64,000 bases of DNA from Flavobacteriaceae bacterium UJ101 (lineage in GTDB: Bacteria; Bacteroidota; Bacteroidia; Flavobacteriales; UJ101): positions 1,436,501 through 1,500,500 of the forward strand of contig CP016269.1 of assembly GCA_001880285.1 (NCBI GenBank), written 5' to 3'. This document shows, in pieces, positions 17,770 through 34,255 of the stretch. The notes under the pieces were generated by a model that had not been told where the DNA came from, did no database searches, and worked only from the letters and a program-made list of their open reading frames with translations. Within the stretch, counting starts at the first letter, position 1; each line of letters opens with the position of its first letter. The position numbers were made by a program, and so were the translations under genes.

Positions 17770-17929
17770 AATACTTCATTTTTAAAGCTAATTATTTATA
17801 AAACTTATAAAAAACATATTCTAGCATGATTATAATTCAATTTCCAATATTATGTTTGTAAACTAATTAACTTAATGATCTTTTAATAAACTTAAATATC
17901 TTTTATTAACCATGCCTATTACATTTTCA

Positions 17930-19360
17930 ATGAAGAAAAGTATATCCTTTATACTCATAGTATTTCAAATGCATTTATTTGGACAATACAATGAATATGT
18001 CAAAAAAAAGCTTACTCAAATTGATAGTTTATATGGAATAGATGAAGAATTGACCATACAAATAAGTAATGAACTGGCAGAATATGCAACACAACATCAT
18101 AATGATGAACTTTTTGTTCAATCTCAGTTATATGCTGTTCAATTATTATTTAATCAAAAAAAATATAATGAAGCTATTGTAAAAGTTAAAGAATTAATTG
18201 AAACAGCTAAAACTACTAACAAAAATCAATTAGTTTATTGTTTAACCATTTTAAACAATTTTTATGTACAATTAGGTTTAAATAACGAATCTGATCAGTT
18301 AACCAATCAAATTTTAAATCTTTATAAAGGAGAAAACTCTTCAAATGCTTACTTAACAAAAGGAAATATCTATATATCTAAAATACAATTATTAACAAGC
18401 TATTCTGAATTTAATGATCTAAACCTTGATGAGCAAAAAAATAAAAATACAATTTTAAACTATGCCAAGAAAGCCTATCATTATTATAATAAAATAGATT
18501 CATCTAATCAAAATTATTTATTTTTTAAATTAAATGGATTAAATACAATGCATTTAGCATATTACAATCTAAATAACGTAGATTCTACAATCTATTATAC
18601 TAATCAATTAAAATATTATTTTGAAAAAAATAATCAACTAAAAGAAAATAAACTCATCTTCTTTTTTTATTATTTTGCTCAAGGTAGAACCTTCTTATTA
18701 AAAGAAGAGTATTCAAAAGCATTATTTTATTTTAATAAAGCATTAAAAAATATTGAATATAACTCTTCTCCAGAATCTAAAATGTATTTATATAAAGATT
18801 TATCCAAAACCTATACTTATTTATCTGATACCCTAAAAAATAAAGAATACACACTACAATACTTTCATTTAAAAGATAGTATAAGTAATGTTAGAAATAA
18901 TATACGAAATGCATATCATGATGAAATTATAAAAAAATCTCAGAAAAGAGAATCTGAAAAATATTATGGATTAATTATAAGCTTTTTCATTCTATTATTG
19001 TTAATAAGTCTTTTCTTTATTTTCTATAAAAAGAAAAAAAGAGAATTAACCGATCAAACCAATAAAACACTCGTTTTAAATAATCTTGATAAATTATTAG
19101 AATTAGCAAAAAGTAATGATATTTTGTTTCAGACTACTTTTAATGAACTATATCCAGAGTTCATTGCAAAAATACCAACATTTTTAACAGAAGATGAAAT
19201 CAAAATTTGCTCTATGATTAAATTAAATTTTTCTTCAAAAGAAATTTCACAATATACTTTTACAAGTATACGAACTATTGAAAATAAACGATATAGAATA
19301 CGAAAAAAGCTTGATTTAGATACTAAAACCAAGTTAAACCAATATTTAAAAAATTTATAA
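17930..19360 (+). CDS. Membrane TPR protein with C-terminal LuxR-type HTH (regulator)
   Basis: 476 residues from the ATG at 17930, chosen over an in-frame ATG at 17912 because it directly begins the signal peptide MKKSISFILIVFQMHLFGQ. TPR-like helices fill most of the protein, one transmembrane helix lies about two thirds along (YYGLIISFFILLLLISLFF), and the C-terminal 60 residues form a LuxR-like HTH (LTEDEIKICSMIKLNFSSKEIS, then SIRTIENKRYRIRKKL). The HTH would be cytoplasmic and the TPRs periplasmic, so it may pass an envelope signal to DNA. Divergent from the two fibre-like genes. Confidence 0.82.
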   Translation: MKKSISFILIVFQMHLFGQYNEYVKKKLTQIDSLYGIDEELTIQISNELAEYATQHHNDELFVQSQLYAVQLLFNQKKYNEAIVKVKELIETAKTTNKNQLVYCLTILNNFYVQLGLNNESDQLTNQILNLYKGENSSNAYLTKGNIYISKIQLLTSYSEFNDLNLDEQKNKNTILNYAKKAYHYYNKIDSSNQNYLFFKLNGLNTMHLAYYNLNNVDSTIYYTNQLKYYFEKNNQLKENKLIFFFYYFAQGRTFLLKEEYSKALFYFNKALKNIEYNSSPESKMYLYKDLSKTYTYLSDTLKNKEYTLQYFHLKDSISNVRNNIRNAYHDEIIKKSQKRESEKYYGLIISFFILLLLISLFFIFYKKKKRELTDQTNKTLVLNNLDKLLELAKSNDILFQTTFNELYPEFIAKIPTFLTEDEIKICSMIKLNFSSKEISQYTFTSIRTIENKRYRIRKKLDLDTKTKLNQYLKNL

Positions 19361-22277: not shown

Positions 22278-22605
22278 TAAGATAATTTGTTGATAATGTA
22301 AATATTAAAATGATTTTATTATAAGTTTTTAACAAATATGTATATTATATTAAATAGTATATCGATATTTTATAGATATATAACAAAAGTAGGTTCATAA
22401 ATACGATCTAAAAAAAGAATTTATTTTTTGAATAATAATTAATGTATTTGTAATAATTAATATATTTTTTTTTATATTTTATAAAATATTCATTATTATA
22501 TTATAATTATTATTAAAATAGATTTTAGTATTAATCGAAAAATAACTATGAATTTTAACATTTTTTTTGTATTCTTATGATTATATATACAAACAAAATG
22601 ATATG
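22278..22605. other. A+T-rich intergenic region upstream of the fibre operon
   Basis: About 325 bases with almost no G or C and several short palindromes (for example around 22356-22384). Another TTATCAACA is present on the minus strand at 22288-22296. It must contain the operon promoter, but I found no perfect TAnnTTTG; ATGTATTTG near 22443 is the nearest match. No gene is visible. Confidence 0.4.
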
Positions 22606-25600
22606 ATGAGGGGCTTTTATATTTTATGTTTGACTTTTTTTTCAGTTATTCATATTTTTTCACAAGTAGGGGTTAATACAGATAATCCAACAGAAACTTT
22701 AGATGTTAACGGGACATTACGTGTTCGTGAAATTGATAATGGTACTACATTAGCTACTAGAGATTCAATTTTAGTAGTAAGTGGGAAGGGAATTGTACAA
22801 AAAGTTTCAGCTGCAGCTGTAGTAGCTGAAGGGGGAAATTCACCAGGAAATGTTTCTGTTTTAACAGATGGAACCGTTATTGTTGGTTCCGGAACTACAA
22901 ATCAAGAAATAACGTTGGGACAAAATGGAGCTACTACGAATCAAGTATTAAAATGGAATGGTACTTCGTGGGTTGCTTCTGATGATTTAAATACGGATAA
23001 TCAAACGTTGACTAATTTAAGTTTAAATTCGAGTAATGTATTAAGTATTAGTTTAGAAGATGGGGGAACTAAGACACTTGATTTAAGTAGTTTGAACAAT
23101 ATAGGCACAGACGATCAGCAATTAAGTTTAACGGGTAATAGTTTATCTTTAGAAGATGGCGGTACCGCGATTGATTTAAGTGGTTATTTAGACAATACAG
23201 ACGATCAGCAATTAAGTTTAATGGGTAACAGTTTATCTTTAGAAGATGGTGGCACAGCAATTGACTTAAGTAGCTACTTAGATAATACAGATAATCAACA
23301 ATTAAGTTTAACGGGCAATAGTTTAGCCCTAGAGGACGGAGGCACCGCGATTGATTTAAGTGGCTACCTAGATAATACGGACAATCAGACAATTACGGAT
23401 TTAAGTTTAAACTCGAGTAACGTATTAAGTATTAGTATAGAAGATGGTGGCACAGAGACGTTAGATTTGAGCAGTTTAAACAATAGTGGAACGGATGATC
23501 AACAGTTAAGCTTAACCGGCAATAGTTTGGCTTTAGAAGACGGAGGCACAGCAATTGACTTAAGTAGCTACTTAGATAATACAGACAATCAGACGATTAC
23601 GGATTTAAGTATAAACTCAAGTAATGTGTTGAGCATTAGCATAGAAGATGGTGGCACGGAGACCTTAGATTTGAGTAGTTTAAACAATAGTGGAACAGAC
23701 GATCAGCAATTAAGTTTAACGGGCAATAGTTTAGCTCTAGAGGACGGAGGAACAGCGATTGATTTGAGTGGCTACTTAGATAATACGGATAATCAGCAAT
23801 TAAGTTTAACGGGCAATAGTTTATCCTTAGAAGACGGAGGCACTGCAATTGATTTAAGCGGCTACCTAGATAATACGGACAATCAAACAATTACGGATTT
23901 AAGTATAAACTCGAGTAACGTATTGAGTATTAGCATAGAAGATGGTGGTACGGAGACGTTAGACTTAAGTAGTTTAAATAATAGTGGAACGGATGATCAA
24001 CAATTAAGCTTAACAGGTAATAGTTTAGCCCTAGAGGACGGAGGAACCGCGATCGACTTGAGTGGTTACTTAGATAATACGGACAATCAAACAATTACGG
24101 ACTTAAGTATAAACTCGAGTAACGTATTGAGTATTAGCATAGAAGATGGCGGTACAGAGACGTTAGATTTGAGTAGTTTAAACAATAGTGGAACAGACGA
24201 TCAACAATTAAGTTTAACCGGCAACAGTTTATCTTTAGAAGATGGCGGCACAGCAATTGACTTAAGTAGCTACTTAGATAATACAGACAATCAGACGATT
24301 ACGGATTTAAGTATAAACTCAAGTAATGTGTTGAGCATTAGCATAGAAGATGGTGGCACGGAGACCTTAGATTTGAGTAGTTTAAACAATAGTGGAACAG
24401 ACGATCAGCAATTAAGTTTAACGGGCAATAGTTTAGCTCTAGAGGATGGAGGAACCGCGATCGACTTGAGTGGTTACTTAGATAATACGGACAATCAAAC
24501 AATTACGGACTTAAGTATAAACTCGAGTAACGTATTGAGTATTAGCATAGAAGATGGCGGTACAGAGACGTTAGATTTGAGTAGTTTAAACAATAGTGGA
24601 ACAGACGATCAACAATTAAGTTTAACCGGCAACAGTTTATCTTTAGAAGATGGCGGCACAGCAATTGACTTAAGTAGCTACTTAGATAATACAGACAATC
24701 AGACGATTACGGATTTAAGTATAAACTCAAGTAATGTGTTGAGCATTAGCATAGAAGATGGTGGCACGGAGACCTTAGATTTGAGTAGTTTAAACAATAG
24801 TGGAACAGACGATCAGCAATTAAGTTTAACGGGCAATAGTTTAGCTCTAGAGGATGGAGGAACAGCGATTGATTTGAGTGGCTACTTAGATAATACGGAT
24901 AATCAGCAATTAAGTTTAACCGGCAATAGTTTATCCTTAGAAGACGGAGGCACTGCAATTGATTTAAGCGGCTACCTAGATAATACGGACAATCAAACAA
25001 TTACGGATTTAAGTATAAACTCGAGTAATGTATTAAGTATTAGCATAGAAGATGGCGGTACAGAGACGTTAGATTTAAGTAGTTTAAATAATAGTGGAAC
25101 AGACGATCAGCAATTAAGTTTAACCGGCAATAGTTTATCCTTAGAAGACGGAGGCACTGCAATTGATTTAAGCGGCTACCTAGATAATACGGACAATCAA
25201 ACAATTACGGATTTAAGTATAAACTCGAGTAATGTATTAAGTATTAGCATAGAAGATGGCGGTACAGAGACGTTAGATTTAAGTAGTTTAAATAATAGTG
25301 GAACAGACGATCAGCAATTAAGTTTAACCGGCAATAGTTTATCCTTAGAAGACGGAGGCACTGCAATTGATTTAAGCGGCTACCTAGATAATACGGACAA
25401 TCAAACAATTACGGATTTAAGTATAAACTCGAGTAATGTGTTGAGCATTAGCATAGAAGATGGAGGTACAGAGACGTTAGATTTGAGTAGTTTAAACAAT
25501 AGTGGAACGGATGACCAACAATTAAGTTTAACAGGTAATAGTTTAGCTCTAGAAGATGGCGGCACTGCAATTGATTTAAGTGGCTATTTAGATAATACAG

Positions 25601-28600
25601 ACAACCAACAATTAAGTTTAACGGGTAACAGTTTATCTTTAGAAGATGGAGGTACCGCGATCGACTTGAGTGGCTACTTAGATAATACAGACAATCAGCA
25701 ATTAAGTTTAACGGGTAACAGTTTATCCTTAGAAGATGGAGGTACCGCGATCGACTTGAGTGGCTACCTAGATAATACGGACAATCAGACAATTACGGAT
25801 TTAAGTATAAATTCGAGTAACGTATTGAGTATTAGTATAGAAGATGGAGGTACAGAGACGTTAGATTTGAGCAGTTTAAACAATAGTGGAACGGATGATC
25901 AACAGTTAAGTTTAACAGGCAATAATTTGGCTTTAGAAGATGGCGGCACTGCGATTGACTTAAGTGGCTACTTAGATAACACGGATAATCAACAATTAAG
26001 TTTAACGGGTAATAGTTTAGCTCTAGAGGACGGAGGAACAGCGATCGACTTAAGCAGCTACCTAGATAATACGGACAATCAAACAATTACGGATTTAAGT
26101 ATAAATTCGAGTAATGTATTAAGTATTAGCATAGAAGATGGTGGCACGGAGACCTTAGACTTAAGTAGTTTAAACAATAGTGGAACGGATGATCAACAAT
26201 TAAGCTTAACAGGTAATAGTTTAGCTCTAGAAGACGGAGGCACTGCAATTGATTTAAGTGGTTATTTGGATAATACGGACAATCAGACGATTACAGATTT
26301 AAGTATAAACTCGAGTAATGTATTAAGTATTAGTATAGAAGATGGTGGTACAGAGACGTTAGACTTAAGTAGTTTAAACAATAGTGGAACGGACGATCAG
26401 CAATTAAGTTTAACGGGTAACAGTTTATCCTTAGAAGATGGAGGTACCGCGATCGACTTGAGCGGCTACCTAGATAATACGGACAATCAAACAATTACGG
26501 ATTTAAGTATAAATTCGAGTAATGTATTAAGTATTAGCATAGAAGATGGTGGCACGGAGACGTTAGACTTAAGTAGTTTAAATAATAGTGGAACGGATGA
26601 TCAACAATTAAGCTTAACAGGTAATAGTTTAGCTCTAGAAGACGGAGGCACTGCAATTGATTTAAGTGGTTATTTGGACAATACAGATAATCAACAATTA
26701 AGTTTAACAGGCAATAGTTTAGCTCTAGAGGACGGAGGAACCGCGATTGATTTAAGTGGCTACTTAGACAATACAGATAATCAGCAATTAAGTTTAACGG
26801 GTAACAGTTTATCCTTAGAAGATGGAGGAACCGCGATCGACTTGAGTGGCTACTTAGATAATACGGACAATCAGACAATTACGAATTTAAGTATAAATTC
26901 GAGTAACGTATTGAGTATTAGTATAGAAGATGGAGGTACAGAGACGTTAGATTTGAGCAGTTTAAACAATAGTGGAACGGATGATCAACAATTAAGTTTA
27001 ACAGGTAATAGTTTAGCTCTAGAAGACGGAGGCACTGCAATTGATTTGAGCGGTTATTTGGACAATACAGATAATCAAACGATTACCGATTTAAGTATAA
27101 ATTCGAGTAATGTATTAAGTATTAGCATAGAAGACGGTGGCACGGAGACGTTAGACTTAAGTAGTTTAAATAATAGTGGAACGGATGATCAACAGTTAAG
27201 TTTAACGGGTAATAGTTTAGCTCTAGAAGATGGCGGCACAGCGATCGACTTGAGTGGTTACTTAGATAATACGGATAATCAACAATTAAGTTTAACGGGT
27301 AATAGTTTATCTTTAGAAGACGGAGGAACCGCGATCGACTTGAGTAGCTATTTAGATAATACAGACAATCAGACGATTACAGATTTAAGTATAAACTCGA
27401 GTAACGTATTGAGTATTAGCATAGAAGATGGCGGTACAGAGACCTTAGATTTGAGCAGTTTAAACAATAGTGGAACGGATGATCAACAATTAAGTTTAAC
27501 GGGTAATAGTTTGGCTTTAGAAGATGGCGGCACTGCGATTGACTTAAGTGGCTATTTGGATAATACAGACAATCAACAATTAAGCTTGACAGGTAATAGT
27601 TTATCTTTAGAAGATGGAGGAACAGCAATTGACTTAAGTAGCTATTTAGATAATACAGATAATCAGACAATTACAGATTTAAGTTTGAATTCGAGTAATG
27701 TATTAAGCATTAGCATAGAAGATGGCGGTACAGAGACGTTAGATTTGAGCAGTTTAAACAATAGTGGAACGGATGATCAACAATTAAGTTTAACGGGTAA
27801 TAGTTTGGCCCTAGAAGATGGCGGCACAGCAATCGACTTAAGTGGCTATTTAGACAATACAGATAATCAGCAATTAAGTTTAACGGGCAATAGTTTAGCC
27901 CTAGAGGACGGAGGAACCGCGATCGACTTGAGTAGCTACTTAGATAATACAGACAATCAGACGATTACGGACTTAAGTTTAAATTCGAGTAACGTATTAA
28001 GTATTAGCATAGAAGATGGAGGTACAGAGACGTTAGATTTGAGCAGTTTAAACAATAGTGGAACGGACGATCAGCAATTAAGTTTAACGGGCAATAGTTT
28101 AGCTCTAGAAGACGGAGGCACTGCAATTGATTTAAGCGGTTATTTGGACAATACAGATAATCAGCAATTAAGTTTAACCGGCAATAGTTTATCTTTAGAA
28201 AATGGCGGCGCAGCAATCGATTTAAGTAGTTATTTGGATAATACGGACAATCAAAATTTAGATTCAGTATTAACTCAAGGGAATGATGCTAGTGGAAATA
28301 CTATTGAAAATTTAGCAAATCCAACAAATGCACAAGATGCAGCAACAAAGAATTATGTAGATACAGCAATCAGTGCTTTAACCGATACAAAAAATGAGCA
28401 ATCTATTACCTATAATACAACAGATGATAAAGTTCAATTATTAAATGATGATAATTCAGAAAATAGCTCTGTTTCAAGATCAGATATTGATAAACAAAGT
28501 ATTGATACTTTTGAAATAAGTGGAAATGCAGTTAATTTGAAGATTGAAAATGCAACACAAGAATCCTTTAATTTATCGGCAACTACACCAACTGATGGTC

Positions 28601-29106
28601 AAACACTTACATGGAATAATACAGATAGTCAATGGGAAGCTCAAAGTGTTTTTTCACAAACTACAGCTGAAATTTATGATGTAGCAGGAGGTCAGACATT
28701 AAATGAATCATCTTTTAGTGATATTAATTTTGCTACAACAGGAATTGTTGATACGAGTGATTATAGTAGTTCAAGTAATTCGATTACGATCTCTAAAACG
28801 GGAAGATATGAAATAACCTATAGAGTGAGTACAGCTGTTCCTACTACGGTTAATAATCGAACTGGAGGTGAATTTTATTTAGAAGTAGGTGGTTCTGAAT
28901 CTCCTGGAACAAGAGCTTATACATATCAAAGAAATAGATTAATTGATAAAAATACGATAACAGTTGATAAAATTATTGAAGTTACATCAGCTCCTGTAGT
29001 TATTAAGGTTAAAGGAAAAGTCTATGCTTCTTCTCAAAATGGAACATCAGCAACTCTAGAAACAGTAGCAAATGGTTCATCATTAATTATAAAGAGAATT
29101 AAATAA
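22606..29106 (+). CDS. Giant secreted repeat protein, fibre-like
   Basis: About 2166 residues from ATG at 22606 (an adjacent ATG at 22603 is equally possible; a TTG at 22567 is too far upstream of the signal peptide). Order: signal peptide ending IHIFSQ; head of about 110 residues starting VGVNTDNPTETLDVNG, with a QVLKWNGTSWVASDD motif; 1750 residues of repeats; then a 287-residue tail. The tail has NPTNAQDAATKNYVDTAIS, a motif familiar from phage tail fibres, and ends in a C1q/TNF-like jelly-roll segment (GRYEITYRVS ... SLIIKRIK). It has no T9SS sorting domain. First gene of a six-gene run; role as adhesive fibre is inference. Confidence 0.85.
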   Translation: MRGFYILCLTFFSVIHIFSQVGVNTDNPTETLDVNGTLRVREIDNGTTLATRDSILVVSGKGIVQKVSAAAVVAEGGNSPGNVSVLTDGTVIVGSGTTNQEITLGQNGATTNQVLKWNGTSWVASDDLNTDNQTLTNLSLNSSNVLSISLEDGGTKTLDLSSLNNIGTDDQQLSLTGNSLSLEDGGTAIDLSGYLDNTDDQQLSLMGNSLSLEDGGTAIDLSSYLDNTDNQQLSLTGNSLALEDGGTAIDLSGYLDNTDNQTITDLSLNSSNVLSISIEDGGTETLDLSSLNNSGTDDQQLSLTGNSLALEDGGTAIDLSSYLDNTDNQTITDLSINSSNVLSISIEDGGTETLDLSSLNNSGTDDQQLSLTGNSLALEDGGTAIDLSGYLDNTDNQQLSLTGNSLSLEDGGTAIDLSGYLDNTDNQTITDLSINSSNVLSISIEDGGTETLDLSSLNNSGTDDQQLSLTGNSLALEDGGTAIDLSGYLDNTDNQTITDLSINSSNVLSISIEDGGTETLDLSSLNNSGTDDQQLSLTGNSLSLEDGGTAIDLSSYLDNTDNQTITDLSINSSNVLSISIEDGGTETLDLSSLNNSGTDDQQLSLTGNSLALEDGGTAIDLSGYLDNTDNQTITDLSINSSNVLSISIEDGGTETLDLSSLNNSGTDDQQLSLTGNSLSLEDGGTAIDLSSYLDNTDNQTITDLSINSSNVLSISIEDGGTETLDLSSLNNSGTDDQQLSLTGNSLALEDGGTAIDLSGYLDNTDNQQLSLTGNSLSLEDGGTAIDLSGYLDNTDNQTITDLSINSSNVLSISIEDGGTETLDLSSLNNSGTDDQQLSLTGNSLSLEDGGTAIDLSGYLDNTDNQTITDLSINSSNVLSISIEDGGTETLDLSSLNNSGTDDQQLSLTGNSLSLEDGGTAIDLSGYLDNTDNQTITDLSINSSNVLSISIEDGGTETLDLSSLNNSGTDDQQLSLTGNSLALEDGGTAIDLSGYLDNTDNQQLSLTGNSLSLEDGGTAIDLSGYLDNTDNQQLSLTGNSLSLEDGGTAIDLSGYLDNTDNQTITDLSINSSNVLSISIEDGGTETLDLSSLNNSGTDDQQLSLTGNNLALEDGGTAIDLSGYLDNTDNQQLSLTGNSLALEDGGTAIDLSSYLDNTDNQTITDLSINSSNVLSISIEDGGTETLDLSSLNNSGTDDQQLSLTGNSLALEDGGTAIDLSGYLDNTDNQTITDLSINSSNVLSISIEDGGTETLDLSSLNNSGTDDQQLSLTGNSLSLEDGGTAIDLSGYLDNTDNQTITDLSINSSNVLSISIEDGGTETLDLSSLNNSGTDDQQLSLTGNSLALEDGGTAIDLSGYLDNTDNQQLSLTGNSLALEDGGTAIDLSGYLDNTDNQQLSLTGNSLSLEDGGTAIDLSGYLDNTDNQTITNLSINSSNVLSISIEDGGTETLDLSSLNNSGTDDQQLSLTGNSLALEDGGTAIDLSGYLDNTDNQTITDLSINSSNVLSISIEDGGTETLDLSSLNNSGTDDQQLSLTGNSLALEDGGTAIDLSGYLDNTDNQQLSLTGNSLSLEDGGTAIDLSSYLDNTDNQTITDLSINSSNVLSISIEDGGTETLDLSSLNNSGTDDQQLSLTGNSLALEDGGTAIDLSGYLDNTDNQQLSLTGNSLSLEDGGTAIDLSSYLDNTDNQTITDLSLNSSNVLSISIEDGGTETLDLSSLNNSGTDDQQLSLTGNSLALEDGGTAIDLSGYLDNTDNQQLSLTGNSLALEDGGTAIDLSSYLDNTDNQTITDLSLNSSNVLSISIEDGGTETLDLSSLNNSGTDDQQLSLTGNSLALEDGGTAIDLSGYLDNTDNQQLSLTGNSLSLENGGAAIDLSSYLDNTDNQNLDSVLTQGNDASGNTIENLANPTNAQDAATKNYVDTAISALTDTKNEQSITYNTTDDKVQLLNDDNSENSSVSRSDIDKQSIDTFEISGNAVNLKIENATQESFNLSATTPTDGQTLTWNNTDSQWEAQSVFSQTTAEIYDVAGGQTLNESSFSDINFATTGIVDTSDYSSSSNSITISKTGRYEITYRVSTAVPTTVNNRTGGEFYLEVGGSESPGTRAYTYQRNRLIDKNTITVDKIIEVTSAPVVIKVKGKVYASSQNGTSATLETVANGSSLIIKRIK
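22993..28242 (+). repeat. Coding tandem repeats: 33 x 90-bp units and 20 x 114-bp units
   Basis: The tract is 5250 bp and is fully accounted for by two in-frame units. Unit A is 30 residues, pattern TDxQQLSLTGNSLxLEDGGT then AIDLSxYLDN. Unit B is 38 residues, pattern TDNQTITDLSxNSSNVLSIS then IEDGGTETLDLSSLNNSG. I count 33 A and 20 B (33x30 + 20x38 = 1750 residues). B units are never adjacent; runs of one to three A units separate them. The two units share the core xLSxEDGGTxxxDLS. A block at 24041-24453 recurs identically 408 bp downstream. Confidence 0.95.
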
Positions 29107-29107
29107 A

Positions 29108-29497
29108 ATGAAAACGATTTATACTACAATAGTGTGGATGATAAGTTTATGTTTTATGAATTTTTTAAGTTCACAAATAAACATTACATCAAGTGAAGTA
29201 AAAGATTATAACACAGCTTCACAAGGTGATTATTATGTTACGACTGATACAAATGAACTGTATATAGGGTTAGAAGATGGTAGTTTACGATTTGTTTCAG
29301 ATTTTACAAATAAATTAGTACAAAATGAATTAGCCTTTGAAGATGATGATTACCTCTATATATCGATGAAAATCAATACAAATGACTATTTGGTAATTCG
29401 TTATAATAAGACAGATTTGAATATAGAAAAAGAAGCATCTGGAACAGGAACACAACCTTCAGATTTACAAACAGTACAAGGCCTAACATATAATTGA
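29108..29497 (+). CDS. Small secreted protein with shared ITSS/TTDTNELY N-terminal domain
   Basis: 129 residues. It starts 1 nt after the giant gene stop. Signal peptide ends near FLSSQ. The mature start INITSSEVKDYNTASQGDYY plus TTDTNELYIGLEDGSLR is nearly the same as in the genes at 31.7 and 33.4 kb, which carry longer C-terminal parts. Here the domain is followed only by about 50 residues. No catalytic motif. Position and shared domain suggest a minor subunit or accessory part of the same surface structure. Confidence 0.75.
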   Translation: MKTIYTTIVWMISLCFMNFLSSQINITSSEVKDYNTASQGDYYVTTDTNELYIGLEDGSLRFVSDFTNKLVQNELAFEDDDYLYISMKINTNDYLVIRYNKTDLNIEKEASGTGTQPSDLQTVQGLTYN

Positions 29498-29503
29498 TGA
29501 TAT

Positions 29504-31621
29504 ATGAGCAATGTATATTCTTTAAAATATTACTTAGTTATTATAGCCGTTTTAATAACGGGTTCATTACAAGCAGCTTTCTCAATTTCAGGCTCTGTTA
29601 TTACACAAACAGGTACAGATACTGATTTATCAGGTTTATCAAGTATTTCGGGAGTAACTATTTCGAGTCAAACAGGTGTTAATGTTTATAATATTGGAAA
29701 TCGAAGATTAATCGTTCAAGGAACTTTAACCATAGACCCTGAAAAAGAAATGTTGATTATAGGATATGATTCAGGTGAATTAGTTCGAGTAGAAGGTTCA
29801 GGTCATTTAATCATAGGAAAAGAAATTATACAAAACGGTTTTGCTAGATATAGTGAAGGAATGGCTATATTTTTAGAAGATACACCACAAGGATTTACAA
29901 ATAGATTTAGTTTTTATAATAATGCAACGTTTACTTGGAATGGAGGTGTTATTTCTATTTATGCTGGTAAATTTGGGTTTTATGGAGATACAGTTACAGT
30001 TCGAGCAAAGAGTAGTAATGCTAAGCTAATTTATAGAACACAGGATCCAGAAAACCAAATAAGACAAGAAACAGATGACTTTATTTCAACAGGTTTTTCA
30101 TTAATACATGGTGATTTAACAATTGTAGGAACAGGTCAACAATTAAATGGATATCAACCAACACAGTCAACAGGAGCGATTGCTTTTTCTTCTGCAACAC
30201 CTAATGTAGATGTTATTTTGAAAGGATATGAAGGAGGAGGAAGAGGAAATACAGTTGATATAAAACACTGGGGTGGATCAAGACCTATTTTGATTAATTC
30301 AGCCTTAGGATCTAATTTAATTTGTGGACCACATATTTCAGGTCATGGAAATGCTTATGGCGTTGCATTAGTTAAACAAGAATTTAAATTAACAGCAAAA
30401 AATGTTGCAGGAAATGGTATTTCTAATGCTAAATTTTTTATTAAAGACACTAATCACGGCAATAGAGAAACGTATAGTAAAGAAGGACATACAGTAAATA
30501 ATAGTGCTGATAAAATTTATACAGGCGTAACAAATTCCAGTGGTTCAACACCAACTGTAGAAATTCTCTTAGCAGCTAATATTGTAAATACTGGAAATAG
30601 TGATGCACCAAATACAGGAAGTTATGCGTGGGATTATAGAGGAAAAAATAATGATCATTCCGATTTATTTGATGTGAACGTTTGGTCATACAAACATTCT
30701 TATGTACAACTTTCAAATATAGAAATGAAAGGAGTAAATGAAAAAGAAGTTAGTACTACTCTTTTTGATGATCCTAACATTACAAAAGCAAATGAAAGTG
30801 ATGCAGCAGCTATTAGTGGAATTGCCGTTACACATAATACTTCAGACGATACAGGAACGATAACGATTACAGGAACGGTAACTTTATGTGATTTATATGA
30901 TAAAATAAAATATGATAAAGTAAATAATAATATTAATGAGCCTACTATTAGTACATTAGCAACAACGGTAACAGGTAAAATTTTAAAACTAGGAAACTAT
31001 CAATTGATTTTAGCAGAGGGTTCAAAAATTCAACCTTGTTATAAATTTGAAAAAATAGAGACAGATGTTGTTTCCTCAATTCATGATGCAAATACCAATT
31101 TAGAAATAGCTTTAGAAGACCCTAATGGAATTTATAAGCTAATACGTTTACAAGATGTTATAAGTGGAAATGTTACTATTCGTGATGAAACGACGGATAC
31201 TGTTTTAAAAGAAATAACTAATTTTACTGGAGATCTGAATCTAGTACTTCAAAGTAATAGTACTAATGTAAGTGTTTATTTAACGCGTGATGGTTATACT
31301 AATTGGGCTACGAACATTGATTTGACAACCGATGAGGTATTTAGTTTTATTATCAACCAAGCTATTCTTTCTGAAAACTTAGGAAATGCAGCTACATTAG
31401 AAAATCAAACAGCTGAATTATTTTTGATGCGTAAGATTTTACAAAAAAGTCAAGCTATTCAAACAGAGTTAAATAATAAAACTGAATCGACTATAAATTT
31501 AAATTCTATTAACCAACCTGGTGCTACGGATGCTACTATGGAAAAACAAGAAGAGTTGTTAGAATTATTAAAGCTTATTCTAGGTAAAACGATAACGGTT
31601 AGAGAAAGTATGAATAATTAA
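29504..31621 (+). CDS. Large secreted protein, beta-rich, unknown family
   Basis: 705 residues, starting 6 nt after the previous stop. Signal peptide cleaved near SLQAAFS. Residues about 25-270 show regular short strands with turns (SGVTISSQTGVNVYNIGNRR, LIVQGTLTIDPEK, HLIIGKEI), compatible with a beta-helix. The middle has a DTGTITITGTVTLCDLYDKI block, then a domain with NVTIRDETTDTVLKEI. The last 100 residues are helical (FLMRKILQKSQAIQTELNNK) and may form a coiled coil. I do not recognise the family. Context suggests a structural surface protein. Confidence 0.75.
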   Translation: MSNVYSLKYYLVIIAVLITGSLQAAFSISGSVITQTGTDTDLSGLSSISGVTISSQTGVNVYNIGNRRLIVQGTLTIDPEKEMLIIGYDSGELVRVEGSGHLIIGKEIIQNGFARYSEGMAIFLEDTPQGFTNRFSFYNNATFTWNGGVISIYAGKFGFYGDTVTVRAKSSNAKLIYRTQDPENQIRQETDDFISTGFSLIHGDLTIVGTGQQLNGYQPTQSTGAIAFSSATPNVDVILKGYEGGGRGNTVDIKHWGGSRPILINSALGSNLICGPHISGHGNAYGVALVKQEFKLTAKNVAGNGISNAKFFIKDTNHGNRETYSKEGHTVNNSADKIYTGVTNSSGSTPTVEILLAANIVNTGNSDAPNTGSYAWDYRGKNNDHSDLFDVNVWSYKHSYVQLSNIEMKGVNEKEVSTTLFDDPNITKANESDAAAISGIAVTHNTSDDTGTITITGTVTLCDLYDKIKYDKVNNNINEPTISTLATTVTGKILKLGNYQLILAEGSKIQPCYKFEKIETDVVSSIHDANTNLEIALEDPNGIYKLIRLQDVISGNVTIRDETTDTVLKEITNFTGDLNLVLQSNSTNVSVYLTRDGYTNWATNIDLTTDEVFSFIINQAILSENLGNAATLENQTAELFLMRKILQKSQAIQTELNNKTESTINLNSINQPGATDATMEKQEELLELLKLILGKTITVRESMNN

Positions 31622-31693
31622 CATAAAAGATTAAAACTAAGAAAAAACTTACAAGCTGTTGTATAAACCAATAATAATTATAAAAAAAGAAAA

Positions 31694-32422
31694 ATGAAAT
31701 ATGGTTTTGCACTCAGTATAATAAGCATTTGTTGTACTTGCCTTTTAAATGCTCAAATTAGAATCACTTCCAGTGACGTTAGTGGTTATAATTCTGCGTC
31801 GGATGGAGACTTTTATATTACTACCGATACGGATGAATTGTATGTAGGATTAGAAACGGGAAGTTTAAGAAAAATTAGTAGTCCCAATGAAATTACCACT
31901 TTATCGGATAATAATGATGGTACAATTACCTATAAAAATGAAAGTAATACAAGTTCCACTATTACAAAATCAAGTTTAACAGACAATACAGATGGAACGT
32001 ATACATTTTCTAATGCTACGGGAACTTCCGATGATGTACAATTAAATTTGAATTTTCCTAAGTACATTAGTATTAATGAATATGTTAGAAATGAACCTGT
32101 ATTAGAACAAGCTGGACGAATTATGTTTAGTGTGCATAATGAATTTGCAGGTTATAAAACCGATAAAATGATATGTTCTATATATAAATTAGGTAATTCT
32201 ACATCATTAACTATAACTCCCGTTTTAAGAAGAGGAAATGTGGATACTTCTATAAGTGAATCGGTATCGTTTAATCCAAGTACACTTTACTCGGGCTCAA
32301 GTAGTGGTGGAAGTGGAACGATTTTACAAGCAGGAGATATTATTTTATTAAATATTACAACACCTACTTCTTTTTCCGATGCTGCAGAAGGTTTAACATG
32401 TACAATAAAACTTTTTAAATAA
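31694..32422 (+). CDS. Secreted protein with ITSS/TTDTxELY domain and beta C-terminus
   Basis: 242 residues. Signal peptide ends LLNAQ. The shared N-terminal domain (IRITSSDVSGYNSASDGDFY, then TTDTDELYVGLETGSLRKIS) is followed by two turns of a DNxDGTxTYKNE / DGTYTFSNATGTSDDV repeat and a C-terminal beta domain of about 120 residues. The same arrangement is seen in the gene at 33.4 kb. Its stop codon overlaps the next start (TAATG), which indicates translational coupling to the lectin-like gene. Confidence 0.75.
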   Translation: MKYGFALSIISICCTCLLNAQIRITSSDVSGYNSASDGDFYITTDTDELYVGLETGSLRKISSPNEITTLSDNNDGTITYKNESNTSSTITKSSLTDNTDGTYTFSNATGTSDDVQLNLNFPKYISINEYVRNEPVLEQAGRIMFSVHNEFAGYKTDKMICSIYKLGNSTSLTITPVLRRGNVDTSISESVSFNPSTLYSGSSSGGSGTILQAGDIILLNITTPTSFSDAAEGLTCTIKLFK

Positions 32423-33333
32423 TGAAAACGATGGTACGCTTGTTTATGTTAATATTAGGAATATCATTGTATGGTCAACATATTGAAGTACAACGTTTTC
32501 AGAGTGAGTCTTCCTCTTCTTTAGGAGCTTATTGGGTTGAAAGAGAAATTCCTAAAACATTAAGTCCTTATTTGTGGTTAGATGCCTCAAAAGATTTTTA
32601 TTTTGAAGATACTTCAGGAAATCTAATATCGTGTAATTCAACTACAAGCCATTCAGTAAAAAAATGGTTGGATAGAAGTGGAAATGATAGACATTTTCAA
32701 TCGGTTTCCAATAGTGCAAACCCTACTTATTATTGTGATAGTCAAACAGATCCATATTATTTGTTTGATGCTAAAGTTTCAGGAGATGGAATTGACGATG
32801 ATATGCGTTTCGATTTTAGTTCTGCATCAGCAGGAACTTTAGATGGTCTTTCTGGAGTAATAGATCAAGATTTTACCTTTGTATTTGTTTTGCAAGCAAT
32901 TGATACCTCTCCATCAACTTATGATAGTTTTATTGCAAGTGGAAATTCTCCTGGTACAGCAAAAAATTGGCAGATTAGTTTGACAAATGATACCAATAAT
33001 TTTTACTTTTTATTGCGAGGTAATAGTAATGCCAATACAAAAACAAAATTATTAATACCTTATGATACTAATCCTCATGTATTTATTTTGCAACGTTATA
33101 CAGTTGGAAGTACAATAAGAATTAAATTTTCTATAGATGGTAATTTAGCGTTTGATGAAACAACGAATGCTGCTTCAGCTCCAACTTTGAGTTTGATGAA
33201 ATTATATAAGAATCGAAATGATGAAAAATATAAAGAAGCTAATTTTAAAGAACTCTTTGTATTTAATAAAGAATTAACAGCCGATGAAGAATATGAATTA
33301 GAGCAATATTTATTGTCCAAATGGGGATCATAA
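32422..33333 (+). CDS. Secreted LamG/concanavalin-like lectin-fold protein
   Basis: 303 residues, with a signal peptide ending SLYGQ. The pattern LSPYLWLDASKDFYFEDTSG, VKKWLDRSGNDRHF, GDGIDD, a central DFTFVFVLQA strand, and a closing FKELFVFNKELTADEEYELE with YLLSKWG is characteristic of the concanavalin A-like (LamG/laminin-type) jelly roll in tail spikes and surface proteins of Bacteroidota. It would bind a sugar or similar ligand; this is family knowledge, not shown here. Start overlaps the previous stop by one base, so the two proteins are probably made together. Confidence 0.78.
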   Translation: MKTMVRLFMLILGISLYGQHIEVQRFQSESSSSLGAYWVEREIPKTLSPYLWLDASKDFYFEDTSGNLISCNSTTSHSVKKWLDRSGNDRHFQSVSNSANPTYYCDSQTDPYYLFDAKVSGDGIDDDMRFDFSSASAGTLDGLSGVIDQDFTFVFVLQAIDTSPSTYDSFIASGNSPGTAKNWQISLTNDTNNFYFLLRGNSNANTKTKLLIPYDTNPHVFILQRYTVGSTIRIKFSIDGNLAFDETTNAASAPTLSLMKLYKNRNDEKYKEANFKELFVFNKELTADEEYELEQYLLSKWGS

Positions 33334-33379
33334 AAATAAATTGCGTAAATTAGAAGATAACTAAAACCAATAAATTAAG

Positions 33380-34198
33380 ATGAGAACTTGTTTTTATATA
33401 GTATTCCTACATTTTGTATGGTTTAATTTTTTAAATGCTCAAATTGAAATTACATCAAGTGCAGTTGATAGTTTTTCAACTGCTGCACAAGGTGATTATT
33501 ATATTACAACGGATACAAATGAATTATACGTTGGATTGGAAGGAGGAACTTTGCGTAAAATAAGTAATCCTAATGAAGTTACATCTTTAATTGATAATAC
33601 AAATGGTACTTTGACATTTAAAAATGAGTTGAACATAAGCAACACTATTAATAAAGCAAATTTAGTAGATAATGGAGATGGAACCTATACATTTTCTAAT
33701 GCTACCGGAACTAGTGATGATGTTACTTTTTTAACAAATTCTAGTTCTGATAATCAAGTTGTTTCTTCTACTTTTTGGATTGATACTACTGCTGTAACTG
33801 TTTCAAGTACTTCTTGGGGAGTACATCAAAAGTCATTTGTTATACCTGGAAATACATTAGGAACAGGAAATGCTGTTCGTATTGTTTGTTATCGAATTAA
33901 TCCGGGAGGTAGTACTCAAATTCGCCTTAGTTATGGAGGACAAACATTTTATACCTCAGGTAATATTGGTAATAATTCTTCAAGAATGGAATTTATTATC
34001 TTTGGAAATGGTACAACAAATTCGCAAAAATCTTTTATGGATGATGCCAATACAGGAGGTAATGGACAAAGGTTTGGTGTTAGTACAGTAGATTCTACTG
34101 TTGATCAAACCGTTAGTATTCAAATAAGAAAGGTAAGTGGATCTGATAAAACTTTAGATTTCTGCTCCGCTGAAAAAATGATTATCAGTACTTCTTAA
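33380..34198 (+). CDS. Secreted protein with ITSS/TTDTNELY domain and beta C-terminus
   Basis: 272 residues. Signal peptide ends FLNAQ. The mature protein starts IEITSSAVDSFSTAAQGDYY, then TTDTNELYVGLEGGTLRKIS, the LIDNTNGTLTFKNE and LVDNGDGTYTFSNATGTSDDV turns, and a C-terminal domain of about 140 residues rich in Ser, Thr, Asn and Gly with alternating strands (FVIPGNTLGTGNAVRIVCY). Clear paralogue of the 242-residue protein, differing mainly in the C-terminal domain. Last gene of the plus-strand run. Confidence 0.75.
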   Translation: MRTCFYIVFLHFVWFNFLNAQIEITSSAVDSFSTAAQGDYYITTDTNELYVGLEGGTLRKISNPNEVTSLIDNTNGTLTFKNELNISNTINKANLVDNGDGTYTFSNATGTSDDVTFLTNSSSDNQVVSSTFWIDTTAVTVSSTSWGVHQKSFVIPGNTLGTGNAVRIVCYRINPGGSTQIRLSYGGQTFYTSGNIGNNSSRMEFIIFGNGTTNSQKSFMDDANTGGNGQRFGVSTVDSTVDQTVSIQIRKVSGSDKTLDFCSAEKMIISTS

Positions 34199-34255
34199 AA
34201 ACAGAATTTACACCTTTCCCTCTACTTTTTTATAGAAGAAAAGATGTAAATGATA

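Follow-up and report, generated by a model that had tools for sequence, protein, structure and literature searches.

The locus described here raises the question of what a flavobacterium makes from a run of exported proteins, some of which resemble parts of phage virions: a surface appendage of its own, a set of adhesins that act separately, or the remains of a phage tail. It lies in a stretch of 64,000 nucleotides of Flavobacteriaceae bacterium UJ101 (contig CP016269.1, positions 1,436,501 to 1,500,500 of the forward strand), hereafter the window, to which all coordinates refer unless another locus is named.

Operon layout, export signals and the giant fibre protein

Six plus-strand open reading frames follow one another with gaps of 1, 6, 72, -1, and 46 nt, and their coordinates agree with an initial annotation, made from the sequence alone, that had described six packed genes spaced in this way. 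The features of the operon are:

22606–29106, plus strand: giant fibre protein, 2166 aa, with a signal peptide, a 'VGVNTDNPTETLDVNGTLRV' module, 53 repeats, a tail-fibre motif and a putative BclA/C1q-like C-terminal jelly roll
22996–28245, plus strand: repeat shaft of the giant, tandem arrays of 33 units of 30 aa and 20 units of 38 aa
28660–29103, plus strand: BclA_C/C1q-like putative jelly-roll tip of the giant (E 2.2e-5, below the curated cut-off)
29108–29497, plus strand: p129, 129 aa, with a signal peptide, the shared N-domain and a unique C-half ending in ...QGLTYN
29504–31621, plus strand: 705-aa relative of Syn5 gp54, with a signal peptide, a phage-like beta-rich body, LYD/beta-sandwich domains and C-terminal helices
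31694–32422, plus strand: 242-aa companion, with the shared N-domain and a C-terminal domain of its own
32422–33333, plus strand: 303-aa LamG/lectin-like companion with a phrog_10356 match
33380–34198, plus strand: 272-aa companion, with the shared N-domain and a C-terminal domain as in a 222-aa protein of the G012 cluster
34206–34251, no strand assigned: hairpin with a 20-bp stem, in the gap that separates the operon from a convergent gene for a TonB receptor; resembles a minus-strand terminator

The operon has genes for PGK, RpiB, a TonB receptor, a class I (Glu/Gln) tRNA synthetase and a peptidase S51 as neighbours, its GC content is 33% (30% for the window), and no tRNA genes were found in the window. 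An alternative TTG start of the giant is possible at 22567. Neither the promoter scan nor the count of terminator-like hairpin sites exceeded what was obtained with shuffled sequences. Upstream of the operon (17912–19360, plus strand) lies a gene for a 482-aa protein with a signal peptide, TPR, a transmembrane segment and a LuxR-type HTH, a possible regulator candidate, with the PGK and RpiB genes standing between it and the operon.

All six proteins start with a hydrophobic, signal-peptide-like stretch as read from the sequence, in line with the signal peptides assigned to them initially; a plausible cleavage site beside a Q was seen in five of the six and a clear lipobox in none. The lack of T9SS sorting domains was likewise borne out, with no C-terminal type A or B domain found in the six proteins using Pfam and NCBIfam models at E-values up to 1. 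The genome itself encodes SprA and six CHU_C cargo proteins scoring above the cut-off, and therefore a T9SS is present.

The 53 complete repeat units of the giant (residues about 131–1880) share 94.5% (30-aa units) and 97.6% (38-aa units) protein identity at a DNA identity of only 85% and 90%, and 87% and 91% of their codon differences, respectively, are synonymous. Because the protein is near-identical while the DNA has diverged through mostly synonymous changes, the shaft is under purifying selection at the protein level; judged by these comparisons, the array is old and protein-selected rather than a product of recent DNA expansion. The tail-fibre motif noticed initially (NPTNAQDAATKNYVD) indeed matches solved tail-fibre and tailspike chains (E 3e-5 to 1e-3). 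The jelly-roll end proposed at the same time gained some support, as the last 148 residues align with positions 18–127 of the 128 of the BclA_C profile (TNF/C1q-like jelly roll; E 2.2e-5), a weak match whose 24.7 bits lie under the Pfam cut-off of 38. This tip is 53% identical to its counterpart in the cluster of genome G012. Matches of the whole giant to Yop-YscD, Dyp peroxidase and FlgB in the family scans were discarded as false and repeat-driven. Sequence matches in the PDB were found neither for the repeat of the giant nor for p129, the 705-aa family or the 303-aa lectin-like protein.

The 'GVNTDNPTETLDVNGTLRV' module is widespread among secreted proteins of Flavobacteriia. A module of this type, as at the N-terminus of the giant, is also carried by a small Flavobacterium phage protein whose start is signal-peptide-like (78 phage records, mostly of F. 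columnare), one example being:

L075:3992–4435, Flavobacterium phage FCL-2: phage protein with the 'GVNTDNPTETLDVNGTLRV' module

From their sequences, phages of the FCL-2 type apparently export a host-type fibre module.

For the 129-, 242-, and 272-aa proteins a common N-terminal domain had been proposed, and these domains are 58–65% identical to each other. Compared with its orthologues, the p129 of the window is 47% (G012) and 21–33% (Tenacibaculum) identical in the N-domain, and 69% and 48–56%, respectively, in the C-half. As the identity within the locus exceeds that between orthologues, the N-domain seems to come in a locus-specific version that several proteins of the locus share. Such matching suggests a shared docking site, which would predict it, and tandem duplication would look similar. 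Domains of this type were also found at 26 weaker places elsewhere in the genome, in other secreted proteins, and because the type is so widespread a common N-domain may not mean a common docking site. Against Mtd_N (major tropism determinant) the 129-aa protein scored 13.5 bits, under the curated cut-off of 26.3, and a structure search with the shared N-domain returned several Mtd_N proteins at weak E-values only.

The 272-aa companion is 37.8% identical over 264 aa to the 222-aa protein of the G012 cluster; a candidate second copy in the genome (L004/L015, E 0.007) was rejected, being a 1055-aa protein whose start is carboxypeptidase-like, as is typical of SusC-type transporters. The 303-aa companion matches phrog_10356 ('virion structural protein', 2e-9) and a minor tail protein of Arthrobacter phage Mendel (2e-3). 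The lectin fold first read into this protein is thus indirectly supported by its phrog match, and no Pfam family matched it.

A relative of Syn5 gp54 and its partner p129

The 705-aa protein had been entered as an unknown, and phage structural genes had been reported absent; that nothing viral is present does not hold, since the protein has clear virion-protein relatives and the 303-aa companion matches a virion structural family. From its mature N-terminus on, the 705-aa protein is, by sequence homology, a full-length relative of gp54 of the Synechococcus phage (cyanophage) Syn5, a virion structural protein. A tblastn search of 50,697 phage records (2.3 Gb of phage DNA) recovered Vibrio phage GR7B (2e-21), Syn5 gp54 ('structural protein', 2e-16) and Vibrio phage 1.031.O (3e-12). 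An HMM built from 14 bacterial gp54-like members scored 88.7 bits against Syn5 gp54, with HMM positions 21–565 covering residues 2–594 of its 622. When the predicted model of the 705-aa protein, confident for residues about 430–617 only, was searched against BFVD, the best viral structure was again Syn5 gp54 (1.7e-10, 701 columns).

Syn5 has a horn at the vertex opposite its tail (PMC10575957). Its gp54 is homologous to the bacterial protein nearly throughout, including the N-terminal 'ITQ(S/T)GTDTDLSGL', the LYD motif and the C-terminal beta domain, but has neither the signal peptide nor the C-terminal helices. The Met of gp54 aligns just past the bacterial signal peptides, and the first ~90 residues are 46% identical: gp54 starts with 'MSFNISNNVITQSGTDTDLSGLAGVTGVT', the window protein reads '...GSLQAAFSISGSVITQTGTDTDLSGLSSISGVT' past a signal peptide of ~25 residues, and the Tenacibaculum proteins read '...VQATFTLTSATIITQTNTDTDLSGLASISGVT' at the matching point. 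Because the alignment starts there, the bacterial form can be read as the phage protein with a signal peptide added (along with C-terminal helices). Unlike in the window, the gene upstream of gp54 in Syn5 is gp53, which is not p129-like; gp53 and gp54 presumably form the horn.

The Vibrio phage proteins GR7B_00187 (vB_VcorM_GR7B) and NVP1031O_152 (1.031.O) match the same 14-member gp54-like profile in two or three stretches (266.7 and 127.4 bits; E 4e-82 and 6e-40, values that come from a small database), but they are multi-domain phage proteins of 1924 and 1224 aa with no signal peptide and no annotated function. When gp54 was compared profile to profile with the Tenacibaculum-rich alignment A4, the probability was low (1.1%) and the alignment collinear. 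In IMG/VR, no viral relatives were retrieved with the 705-aa protein, the 705-aa alignment or p129 as queries; the N-terminal stretch of the 705-aa protein alone matched one contig of 46,214 bases, equal in size to Syn5. Structure comparison of the C-terminal region with the PDB returned Ig-like beta-sandwiches, including cytolysin domain 4, and was uninformative (Z < 8). The predicted beta-rich body and helical end would fit a scaffold role, with which they are compatible without proving it.

A p129-type gene lies 1–23 nt upstream of the gp54-like gene at 24 of the 25 distinct loci, counting L027, where it is truncated by the contig end; the sole unpaired gp54-like gene (L012) is a second, solitary copy in G012. 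These partners are usually about 135 aa long (129 aa in the window) and reach 213–551 aa in one subtype. The C-half of p129 has no second occurrence in the genome of the window. Its AlphaFold model has a mean pLDDT of 85.6, and comparison with PDB structures yielded propeller-blade-like meanders, uninformative at Z < 8. GR7B_00186 and NVP1031O_153, encoded upstream of the Vibrio phage gp54-like genes and ending in '..RESLTY' or '..RETLTY', looked like p129 relatives by eye, a reading that was dropped because an HMM of the p129 C-halves missed both. The same HMM weakly matched CDS0101 of Maribacter phage Panino (E 0.0027 in a small set, 14-residue core). By eye, this phage (L058:5277–10964) has relatives of Syn5 gp53 and gp55, and gp54 C-terminal domains on LamG-like heads, with blast support for one such domain.

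Fibre clusters and stand-alone pairs in other flavobacteria

Relatives of the gp54-like protein were found in Tenacibaculum, Aquimarina, Algibacter, Flavobacteriaceae strain Hp32, a Saprospiraceae MAG and another family of Flavobacteriales, with a patchy distribution: 14 of 98 genomes in the genus group that contains Tenacibaculum, 6 of 394 in the order and 3 of 392 in the phylum. The initial annotation had proposed looking for the same gene order in Flavobacteriia, and the core of the cluster does recur in other flavobacteria. The pair of p129-type and gp54-like genes stands inside a fibre cluster at 10 loci (the window, G012, L017–L020, L028, L036, L037, and L081), with the giant gene first and often cut by the contig end. 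In Tenacibaculum, exported N-domain companions with C1q-like or other heads come between the giant and the pair, and further tips come after it; the companions of the window and G012 lie downstream of the pair. Several Tenacibaculum genomes share both the cluster and the genes that flank it, and companion content differs between loci. The giant of the complete Tenacibaculum genome G348 is collagen-like and 2200 residues long (Pfam Collagen 3.8e-290). Since the giant is collagen-like in Tenacibaculum and made of another repeat in the window, the shaft appears to be exchangeable and the pair constant. The Tenacibaculum clusters close with a CHU_C (T9SS type B) protein (one tested, the rest homologues by position), which is absent from the clusters of the window and G012.

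A distant subtype of the pair, in which the p129 variant is enlarged, was found near ffh and folD in five further genomes of the Tenacibaculum group; in four of them (not at L077) the genes of other small exported proteins of about 174, 228, 390–404, and 250 aa come ahead of it:

L076:11214–15206, L078:4355–8504, L079:12013–16067 and L080:3332–8289: second cluster type, Tenacibaculum group

At L077:9457–11582 (minus strand; genome G802, Tenacibaculum group) the gp54-like gene is split into overlapping ORFs of 307 and 404 aa, which is a frameshift or sequencing error.

The pair also occurs without the fibre cluster at at least eight loci (L016, L021–L026, and L083) and so presumably has some function alone. 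A secreted protein of ~1123 aa is conserved upstream of the stand-alone pair in Tenacibaculum (L022, L024, L083, and L085); the one tested had no Pfam match.

A probable surface fibre and competing readings

Since its core recurs in other flavobacteria, we consider it fairly probable that the operon encodes a virus-related fibre, exported by Sec, that is adhesive, sits on the cell surface, has interchangeable tips and is built on a scaffold of modules shared with phage virion appendages. All six proteins would reach the periplasm by Sec and then the cell surface, for which the T9SS is the likeliest vehicle (possibly with the proteins carried along by other cargo) and another outer-membrane route the alternative. 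There, the gp54-like protein and p129 would form a base or scaffold. The giant, probably as a trimer, would make up the long shaft and carry a binding head, while the lectin-like protein and the remaining N-domain proteins would attach to this same base and serve as alternative tips, with glycans or other surfaces as their targets. The self-contained surface appendage of the initial annotation stands in so far as this is an exported, fibre- or adhesin-like cluster with a recurrent core in a housekeeping setting; that it makes one single appendage we infer, as we do its surface location, assembly, export route, trimeric shaft and adhesion by the heads. Against this model, tandem duplication could also have produced the matching N-domains of a locus with no co-assembly involved, a T9SS sorting domain could be recognised in none of the six, and the pair also stands alone.

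The same proteins could instead be co-expressed but unassembled adhesins or biofilm-matrix proteins that act separately, their phage-like modules being common building blocks of Bacteroidota fibres. The spread of the N-domain and the 'GVNTDNPTETLDVNGTLRV' module through secreted Flavobacteriia proteins, the latter also in the F. columnare phage protein with its signal-peptide-like start, would fit such an origin, as would the varying companions; the adjacency of the pair at nearly all loci across divergent genera and the matching of N-domains within loci suggest assembly, and we regard separate action as rather unlikely. A surface trap, in which displayed phage-appendage-like proteins block receptors or adsorb competing phages, would explain why a bacterium apparently exports virion-like proteins and why related modules (the gp54 C-terminal domain and the weak p129-like match) occur in Panino, a phage of a Flavobacteriaceae host. 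With no defence genes among the scanned neighbours of the operon, and with the closest full-length phage relatives infecting Synechococcus and Vibrio rather than flavobacteria, we think this very improbable.

Virion-protein homologues had been named initially as the sign of a prophage tail remnant, and they are present: the 705-aa and 303-aa proteins and the tail-fibre motif of the giant would all suit a remnant of a prophage tail or of a tailocin (a non-replicating phage tail particle). The remnant itself was not borne out. Phage_sheath_1 (PF04984) and Terminase_6N (PF03237, one terminase family) were absent from the whole 3.07-Mb genome, in which control families were detected; the genome-wide scan comprised these two families rather than other capsid or portal families, and among the scanned neighbours no capsid, portal, terminase, sheath or lysis genes were found. 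Because of the housekeeping flanks and the lack of a sheath gene or a terminase of that family, the operon does not appear to be such a remnant, and the same observations, together with its signal peptide, contradict the 705-aa protein being part of a phage virion. Every protein carries a signal peptide, for which a virion protein assembled in the cytosol has no use, the cluster sits between the same flanking genes in several Tenacibaculum genomes, and the shaft is under purifying selection, so that this origin is highly unlikely.

The exported adhesive fibre that we favour can be set beside several known kinds of structure, namely BclA-like fibres, SprB-like adhesins and domesticated phage tails. 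Bacillus BclA, the exosporium hair with a collagen-like shaft and a C1q/TNF-like head, resembles the collagen-like giant of Tenacibaculum, and BclA_C-like ends (with scores below the Pfam cut-off) are found on the window giant and a Tenacibaculum companion; here, however, there is no spore, the gp54-like pair stands alongside and the window shaft is a non-collagen repeat. The SprB-type T9SS adhesins of gliding Flavobacteriia are also giant secreted repeat proteins from the same bacterial class, and SprA is encoded in the genome of the window, whereas the six window proteins are without T9SS sorting domains. The known domesticated phage appendages (T6SS, eCIS, and tailocins) share with the operon the reuse of phage appendage modules by the host, but they assemble in the cytosol with a sheath and tube, while here all proteins have export signals and no Phage_sheath_1 gene exists. 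No description of such a cluster was found in the literature searched, whose coverage left subscription papers largely outside, and as far as our searches reach a fibre operon centred on a gp54-like protein that is exported by Sec and has a dedicated partner seems not to have been described. The reuse of phage appendage modules is known, and there is a real chance that the operon is a class of its own. Going further, it is possible, if somewhat doubtful, that several genera of Flavobacteriia possess an undescribed class of appendage, in which a Sec-exported relative of a virion appendage and its small partner would form an extracellular scaffold where giant collagen-like or beta-repeat trimers and lectin- or C1q-like tips dock via a locus-specific N-domain.

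A relative of a virion structural protein has thus been kept, with an export signal and a constant partner, in several bacterial genera, and the 705-aa protein offers an accessible bacterial homologue for the study of gp54. If a surface fibre is built, it would represent a second route from phage appendage parts to bacterial organelles and would give a direct genetic handle on flavobacterial adhesion to surfaces and hosts.
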